Of a stretch of DNA of 64,000 nucleotides, positions 57,377 through 57,798 are shown one piece after another; the stretch's first letter is position 1, and every line of letters begins with the position of its first letter. The stretch is from Betaproteobacteria bacterium (lineage in GTDB: Bacteria > Pseudomonadota > Gammaproteobacteria > Burkholderiales > Casimicrobiaceae). Under the pieces are notes generated by a model. That model was not told where the DNA came from and searched no databases. It saw only the letters and a program-made list of their open reading frames with translations. The translations under genes and the position numbers were made by a program. The stretch is from the NCBI GenBank assembly GCA_016861105.1, contig BOKS01000001.1, positions 310,001 to 374,000 of the forward strand, read 5' to 3'.

Positions 57377-57401
57377 CCCCTCTCCCCTTGCGGGAGAGGG
57401 G
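57377..57401. repeat. CCCTCTCCC palindrome, left flank of the DUF559 gene
   Basis: CCCCTCTCCC-(CTTGC)-GGGAGAGGGG, a perfect 10-bp hairpin, followed by TGGGGGAGAGGGGG. It directly precedes the DUF559 gene start at 57418. Confidence 0.85.
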
Positions 57402-57417
57402 TGGGGGAGAGGGGGCA

Positions 57418-57798
57418 GTGGACGAGCGACAACTGACTTTTGCCCGGCAGATGCGCGCGAATGCAAGCGATGCCGAGCGCGTGCTGTGGCGCCATCTACG
57501 CGCGTGTCGGTTCGACGGGCACAAGTTCAAGCGTCAGCAAGCCATCGGGCCCTATATCGTTGATTTCGTTTGCTTCTCTTCACGACTGATCGTCGAGGTC
57601 GACGGAGGGCAGCACCTTGAAAGCAGCAGTGACGTACGGCGCGATGCGTGGCTGCGTGCACAGGGATTCAAAGTGCTCCGACTCTGGAACAACGACGTGC
57701 TGAAGCGGACAGAGTCCGCGCTTGAAGAGATCCTCCGCCAATTGCCTCCCTCTCCCCCGGCCCCTCCCCCGCAAGGGGGGAGGGGAGTTCACGCATGA
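57418..57798 (+). CDS. DUF559 endonuclease-like domain protein
   Basis: A 126-residue protein of the DUF559 (very-short-patch-repair-like nuclease) family. Motifs: LTFARQMRANASDAERVLWRHLR, FKRQQAIGPYIVDFVCFSSRLIVEVDGGQHLE (PD-(D/E)xK-type Asp and Glu-Val-Asp core), and GFKVLRLWNNDVLKRTESALEEIL. The GTG at 57418 is taken as start. The tail PPSPPAPPPQGGRGVHA is encoded by a palindromic repeat, and the stop overlaps the aapP ATG. The gene interrupts the aap operon and has a palindrome of the same family on each side, so it looks like an insertion. Confidence 0.82.
   Translation: MDERQLTFARQMRANASDAERVLWRHLRACRFDGHKFKRQQAIGPYIVDFVCFSSRLIVEVDGGQHLESSSDVRRDAWLRAQGFKVLRLWNNDVLKRTESALEEILRQLPPSPPAPPPQGGRGVHA
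57761..57785. repeat. CCCCTCCCCC palindrome, right flank of the DUF559 gene
   Basis: CCCCTCCCCC-(GCAAG)-GGGGGAGGGG, a perfect 10-bp hairpin. It lies within the 3' end of the DUF559 frame. Its GGGGGGAGGGGAG arm also serves as the ribosome-binding site of aapP, whose ATG is at 57795. Confidence 0.85.

Follow-up and report, generated by a model that had tools for sequence, protein, structure and literature searches.

Since the 1990s E. coli has been known to carry BoxC elements, later described again under the names PIT element and G/C-rich intrastrand triplex motif (TM). In this motif a C-rich arm is followed by two G-rich arms with short loops, and it occurs in inverted pairs (PMC4666352). The elements have been reported in more than 260 genomes with no known function, and no mobility gene is reported adjacent to them (PMC4666352). 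Another class of short hairpin repeats, the REPINs, does have a gene partner, since the REP-associated tyrosine transposases (RAYTs) are thought to drive REPIN maintenance or spread (PMC3116915). The present work concerns a unit of about 420 bp in a stretch of 64,000 nucleotides (hereafter the window) of contig BOKS01000001.1 from a Betaproteobacteria bacterium, in which one gene of the DUF559 family, a predicted nuclease, carries one repeat at each end. An earlier note on this DNA had seen in it a possible new repeat-mobilising unit. By its sequence and loops, the second loop being of TTA or CCG type, and by its occurrence in inverted pairs, the palindrome family of the window is not new and belongs to the BoxC/TM family already described. 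The DUF559 gene and its two inverted TMs constitute one recurrent unit, and the partnership of DUF559 genes with the repeats is genome-wide. Because this pairing recurs in distantly related bacteria, the predicted nuclease is likely to be the missing partner enzyme of the repeats. We give a probability of roughly 0.58 to the reading that it recognises and nicks the repeat, so that repair or copying maintains and spreads the repeats and, more rarely, the gene.

Anatomy of the unit and identity of its repeats

The two hairpins noticed earlier on either side of the gene have perfect 10-bp stems (57377-57401 and 57761-57785). The left TM (57377-57414, plus strand) consists of a C-rich arm (57377-57386), the loop CTTGC, a G-rich arm (57392-57401), the linker TG and a third, G-rich arm that starts at 57404 and runs toward the gene. 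The right TM (57748-57785, minus strand) repeats the left one in inverted orientation, with 88% complementarity over 32 nt; its third arm is at 57748-57758, followed by the linker CCG and its hairpin at 57761-57785. Both have the order C-rich arm, G-rich arm, G-rich third arm, the last being located on the gene side of the hairpin and matching the mirror of the second arm in full in the left repeat (10 of 10 positions) and at 9 of 10 in the right one. The inverted relation of the two repeats and their third arms go beyond what the earlier note described. In the predicted single-strand fold of the left TM the C-rich arm is paired with the third arm, so that two pairings would compete within this repeat.

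The DUF559 gene (57418-57798, plus strand; PF04480, Pfam E 1.2e-39) has a probable GTG start at 57418, in a frame open from the TTG at 57388. The right TM encodes most of the C-terminal tail of the protein, and the last residues (PPSPPAPPPQGGRGVHA) derive from this repeat and the bases that follow it, in agreement with the earlier note. The TGA stop shares bases with the ATG of the gene that follows, as ATGA. This next gene encodes an AapP-like ATPase (57795-58541, plus strand; PF00005), and the gene upstream of the unit an AapM-like permease (56268-57371, plus strand; PF00528), whose stop is 5 bases from the left repeat. The aap names are presumptive, being taken from the earlier note, and Pfam gives a permease and an ATPase. 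In three relatives of the same family (G390, G396 and G401), those with a readable junction, the permease-ATPase gap measures 15 to about 27 bases and the palindrome is absent. These junctions are clean, but the permease is only 71% identical, and they were rejected as exact empty sites. Regarding the classical features of an insertion sequence or a miniature inverted-repeat transposable element, inverted ends are present and no target duplication was seen on reading the window.

The described TMs have TTA (type A) or CCG (type B) as second loop (PMC4666352), the latter being the linker of the right TM. A left/right difference in the use of TTA and CCG linkers, which had been hoped for, was not clear. 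The resemblance extends to the mirror symmetry of the arms. Of 135 asymmetric arms, 84 have a third arm that agrees more closely with the mirror than with the direct copy, 48 show no difference and 3 favour the direct copy; a full mirror match is provided by the element's own third arm in 98 of the 135 (73%), against 11% when the third arm of another element is used. In a looser test that did not require a G-rich follower (n = 408) the mirror was better in 160, equal in 202 and worse in 46. Since the third arms keep their mirror match, the potential to form a triplex is preserved through sequence changes. What sets the present repeats apart is that they bracket a nuclease-family gene, and that they do so in genomes of many phyla.

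Partnership of DUF559 genes and repeats

Flanks were surveyed in two sets of loci. Set A holds the best 80 of 253 DUF559 relatives by similarity to the window protein, from named genomes of many phyla; set B holds 91 loci of the window's class (30 loci, the window and 60 listed places, lower-scoring and unlisted places being left out). The scan covered about 300 bp on each side and, downstream, took in the last 100 bp of the match; an earlier version with narrower flanks gave fewer right-hand motifs. Two of the 80 and three of the 91 loci were dropped for short flanks. One locus, common to both sets, is counted twice in the per-set, co-variation and outer-repeat counts and possibly in the third-arm counts.

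A hairpin was present on at least one side at all 78 loci of set A, on both sides at 60, and inward-facing TMs were found on both sides at 42; the corresponding figures for set B (n = 88) are 86, 70 and 52. Over the 165 distinct loci, a C-rich hairpin accompanies the gene at 163, lies on both sides at 129, and inward TMs bracket the gene at 93. The earlier note regarded DUF559 genes devoid of nearby palindromes as fatal to its proposal, an objection that this survey does not bear out. Flanks of other genes, taken from set A loci only (n = 71), had a hairpin on any side in 13 cases, on both in 1 and TMs on both in none. At random places hairpins on both sides numbered 3 and TMs on both sides 1 (set A loci, n = 489), or 1 and 1 in the small control from set B loci (n = 33). 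Inverted similarity between the flanks, scored independently, exceeded the 99th percentile of 1010 control pairs at 53 of 81 loci. Phages contributed two distant matches.

The partnership is also apparent at the level of whole genomes. DUF559 was considered strong when the best E was at most 1e-15, a cut-off of our choosing, and all matches were taken at E of at most 1e-3. In the window's class (369 genomes) the palindrome is present in 62 of 78 genomes with strong DUF559, in 10 of 34 with weak matches only and in 54 of 257 with none; in a second class, that of Sphingopyxis (385 genomes), the proportions are 78/94, 4/31 and 46/260. With all matches pooled they are 72/112 against 54/257 and 82/125 against 46/260. 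At least five palindromes occur in 45 of 78 strong genomes versus 23 of 257 without DUF559 (window's class) and in 65 of 94 versus 13 of 260 (second class), a threshold that only in part removes the palindromes counted at the DUF559 genes themselves. The abundance of palindromes in DUF559-free genomes, the other objection foreseen by the earlier note, is thus real in a minority of them. A control pattern read backwards was rare, with exceptions such as G617 (48) and G147 (3). Of the 35 families of the window's class that hold both kinds of genome, 24 have more palindromes where DUF559 is present, 6 show no difference and 5 have fewer, and two genomes of one genus have 135 palindromes with 4 DUF559 genes (G165) and none of either (G274). 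Moreover, protein similarity and repeat similarity are correlated over the 152 loci with inward TM (Mantel r 0.55; no more than 0.13 in any of 500 permutations). The association between DUF559 and the repeats is near certain.

Further repeats are scattered in the window, and the three additional positions given by the earlier note (16368, 27348 and 62583) are all genuine. The exact palindrome occurs three times in the window and never in 100 dinucleotide shuffles. Stems of at least 9 with a third arm number five, including one that belongs to another C-rich family, and five triplet-block shuffles gave none; a chance origin is excluded. The hairpin at 16368-16393 (minus strand) has an 11-bp stem and a full third arm on the minus strand. 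Two adjacent family hairpins occupy 27318-27370 (plus strand), the second (27348-27370) with a third arm. The TM-like element at 62583-62624 (plus strand) lies inside an open frame of the opposite strand (62034-63962), which it does not close and in which it is translated as PPSPSPSPARAGEGRG; by its sequence this frame probably encodes a pyruvate dehydrogenase E1-like protein. In addition, 25463-25667 holds three hairpins (CCCCCTTT..AAAGGGGG) that have third arms and belong to a different C-rich family, and hairpins similar to these flank the DUF559 genes of two other loci (L203 and L220).

Turnover of units and competing explanations

The best view of units coming and going is given by Sphingopyxis, at a junction that we assume, from its sequence, to be pdhC/lpd. 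It could be compared in 50 of 60 genomes, where units of types I, II and III number 3, 10 and 5, while 10 junctions are clean and 22 have other inserts (214-1046 bp, one keeping a right-hand hairpin); this junction is an insertion hot spot. All 18 units carry an open DUF559 frame (15 by motif, 3 by reading). In the examples compared the three types are 48-68% identical to one another; types I and II have the outer hairpin in common, and type III has a repeat subtype of its own. At the place of the G165 unit, a relative from its genus carries a solo TM, and the junctions read in this genus contain a solo TM or no TM. Near the DUF559 gene of L193 (564-680), a stretch with two repeats, similar to a small non-autonomous element, recurs at many other places in this genus.

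Other candidate empty sites were rejected. In the E. coli ypfG/tkt gap a TM of one strain (L370) is replaced in six others (L371-L376) by what we take to be REP-like sequence, so the gap is not clean, and the sapF/fabI junction holds either ycjD or efflux genes. For Azospirillum no empty site was found, the stretch being covered 99-100% in each of the seven records found.

In the mechanism that we favour, an active DUF559 enzyme would act on an extruded hairpin or on a triplex in single-stranded DNA, for example at replication. The nick would prime copying into a new site, and repair or copying after the nick would maintain the repeats and spread them, with the gene moving more rarely. The scattered repeats and repeat pairs would then be non-autonomous followers of the bracketed gene unit, as in REPIN-RAYT. 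The odds that DUF559 nicks the repeats and thereby maintains or spreads them seem to us somewhat better than even. Of the earlier proposal that DUF559 moves or maintains the palindromes, the partnership is upheld by the flank survey, the two association tests, the within-family comparison and the co-variation. As to movement, which would be the other part, the comparisons gave presence, absence and replacement of whole units, and no exact empty site of the kind considered below.

Several observations weigh against this mechanism. No exact empty site with a duplication ascribable to DUF559 was found among the aap, Sphingopyxis, G165, G612, E. coli, Azospirillum and G032 comparisons. The clean Sphingopyxis junctions, with 1-2 bases between the genes in 8 of 10 on re-reading, also lack about 21 bp to the left and 18 bp to the right of the repeats, and were discarded as exact empty sites. 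For one repeat pair of genome G612, six relatives hold a counterpart at the orthologous position, which means that residence of a repeat can be long; in three the pair is missing and the surrounding bases have changed. Genome G032 has three near-identical DUF559 copies, which are enclosed by a longer terminal repeat and flanked by 9-bp duplications, one of these having a mismatch. These copies were not retained as a DUF559-driven transposon: the outer repeat end (AAAGGTATCTACACAAGT, L346-L349) is also present without DUF559 and with other interiors, so another element may have moved them, and its sharing suggests a further mobile family. Only outward-facing motifs were found at 1 of 78 loci in set A and 8 of 88 in set B. 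Palindromes are abundant in some genomes without DUF559 (78 in G273, 71 in G093, 56 in G047), and 16 of 78 and 16 of 94 strong DUF559 genomes lack them by the pattern used; at least in G032, a DUF559 genome, the repeat arms differ from this pattern. The genome of the window, 85% complete, has one DUF559 gene and only five palindromes by a relaxed pattern, two of them at the unit. Joint inheritance alone, and not specificity, may account for the way protein and repeat co-vary. Finally, Holder et al. (2015) obtained the triplex in vitro and saw no stable triplex in vivo (PMC4666352), and in Caulobacter, as far as the consulted text goes, experiment ties the DUF559 protein VsrA to methylase loss and not to repeats (PMC12907096).

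A rival reading makes DUF559 a caretaker, a repair nuclease of the Vsr or resolvase kind by which triplex and hairpin structures would be removed or resolved, the repeats spreading by other means and the gene being kept near because repeat-rich genomes need it. We regard this as unlikely, since alone it leaves unexplained the bracketing by inverted, inward-facing repeats (52/88 and 42/78), the tracking of protein type by repeat type, and the whole units that come and go at one junction. The same junction, with unrelated inserts in 22 of 50 genomes, agrees with DUF559 being a passenger, cargo that does not act on the repeat, either because TM clusters are recombination hot spots or because conventional transposons carry TM-DUF559 cassettes. 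The more frequent rearrangement at TM sites noted by Holder et al. (PMC4666352) points in this direction, as do the outer terminal repeat and 9-bp duplications around the three G032 copies, with a repeat end that has other interiors too. As seen from the gene, however, a hairpin is almost always there (at 163 of the 165 distinct loci), the association is absent for weak or fused DUF559 matches, and only 11 of 94 bracketed loci, one locus being counted twice, have an outer repeat that exceeds the control's 99th percentile; a mere passenger is quite improbable.

It is very improbable that a RAYT/HUH transposase moves the repeats, or that these are plain terminators or regulators, the proximity of DUF559 being a by-product of intergenic crowding. 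TM and REP-like sequence do alternate in the same ypfG/tkt gap, and palindromes do exist without DUF559. Nevertheless, bracketing is near zero in the gene-flank control, both genome-level tests are strong, and Holder et al. report TMs without promoter or terminator activity and without a regulatory pattern (PMC4666352).

Relation to known nucleases and to REPIN-RAYT

The structure model of the DUF559 protein (pLDDT, the predicted local distance difference test score, 85.8) resembles the homing endonuclease I-Bth0305I (PDB 3r3p) and Vsr, with a predicted PD-(D/E)XK-like, that is restriction-endonuclease-like, fold; the predicted fold agrees with both the EDxHD catalytic domain and Vsr. A nuclease-like fold such as that of the model (57421-57795) is also common to several mitoribosome proteins of Toxoplasma and Tetrahymena. 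I-Bth0305I differs in being a long multi-domain protein with a target of nearly 60 bp (PMC3943268), whereas the DUF559 protein is a small lone domain with 17% identity to it. Vsr and Caulobacter VsrA are tied to cytosine methylation and mismatch repair, and the accessible text mentions no link to repeats (PMC12907096). Closer are YcjD of E. coli and NGO0050 (PDB 3hrl), which belong to the same family, 3hrl being 50% identical over the aligned part. TM-like repeats adjoin the gonococcal gene and lie downstream of ycjD. They differ from the present unit in that both copies at the gonococcal gene, as read here, have the same orientation, and the upstream side of ycjD has not a TM but a long perfect hairpin (L175, about 3938-3980) unrelated in sequence to the repeats downstream. 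Among open-licence PMC papers, preprints not included and relevance judged partly by title, no literature was found that links DUF559 with palindromic repeats or Vsr-like proteins with REP-type repeats.

A wider proposal can be put forward tentatively and with odds short of even: DUF559 may be the first enzyme found for a kind of selfish DNA that extends across bacteria. Its members would be cassettes some 400-550 bp long with triplex-repeat ends, spread by a stripped-down nickase of homing-endonuclease or Vsr type that would read the triplex or hairpin, and the scattered BoxC elements of E. coli and of hundreds of other genomes would be their non-autonomous offspring. A candidate enzyme for the BoxC/triplex repeats that is present in E. 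coli K-12 as ycjD, and has a solved relative in 3hrl, makes the origin and spread of these repeats directly testable. If this enzyme is the right one, a widespread domain that has had no assigned function would gain one, and the REPIN-RAYT mode of existence would have arisen twice independently.

Pairing of the repeats bears on this comparison. In 380 kb of the palindrome-rich genome G612 there are 26 palindromes, 20 in close pairs, 2 at the DUF559 gene and 4 single; besides the DUF559 pair there are ten neighbour distances of 34-148 bp, and the pairs include some with outward and some with inward tails. Elsewhere, 32 loci from other genomes gave 11 pairs of neighbours within 200 bp (5 outward, 4 inward and 2 tandem), the rest being solitary. 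No GTAG or CGTC tag (as named in PMC3733652) was seen on reading beside the window hairpins, and the gene bracketed by the repeat is DUF559 and not an HUH/Y1 tyrosine transposase. With REPIN-RAYT the present system has in common the short hairpin repeats, with inverted pairs among them, a single nuclease gene with a repeat beside it, the few gene copies per genome and the co-variation of gene and repeat (PMC3116915). It differs in that RAYT is an IS200/IS605-related transposase, whereas DUF559 has a predicted restriction-endonuclease-like fold and its repeat bears a third, triplex arm (PMC3116915). By analogy, then, DUF559-TM would work like REPIN-RAYT and, because the enzyme family differs, is not a member of it.
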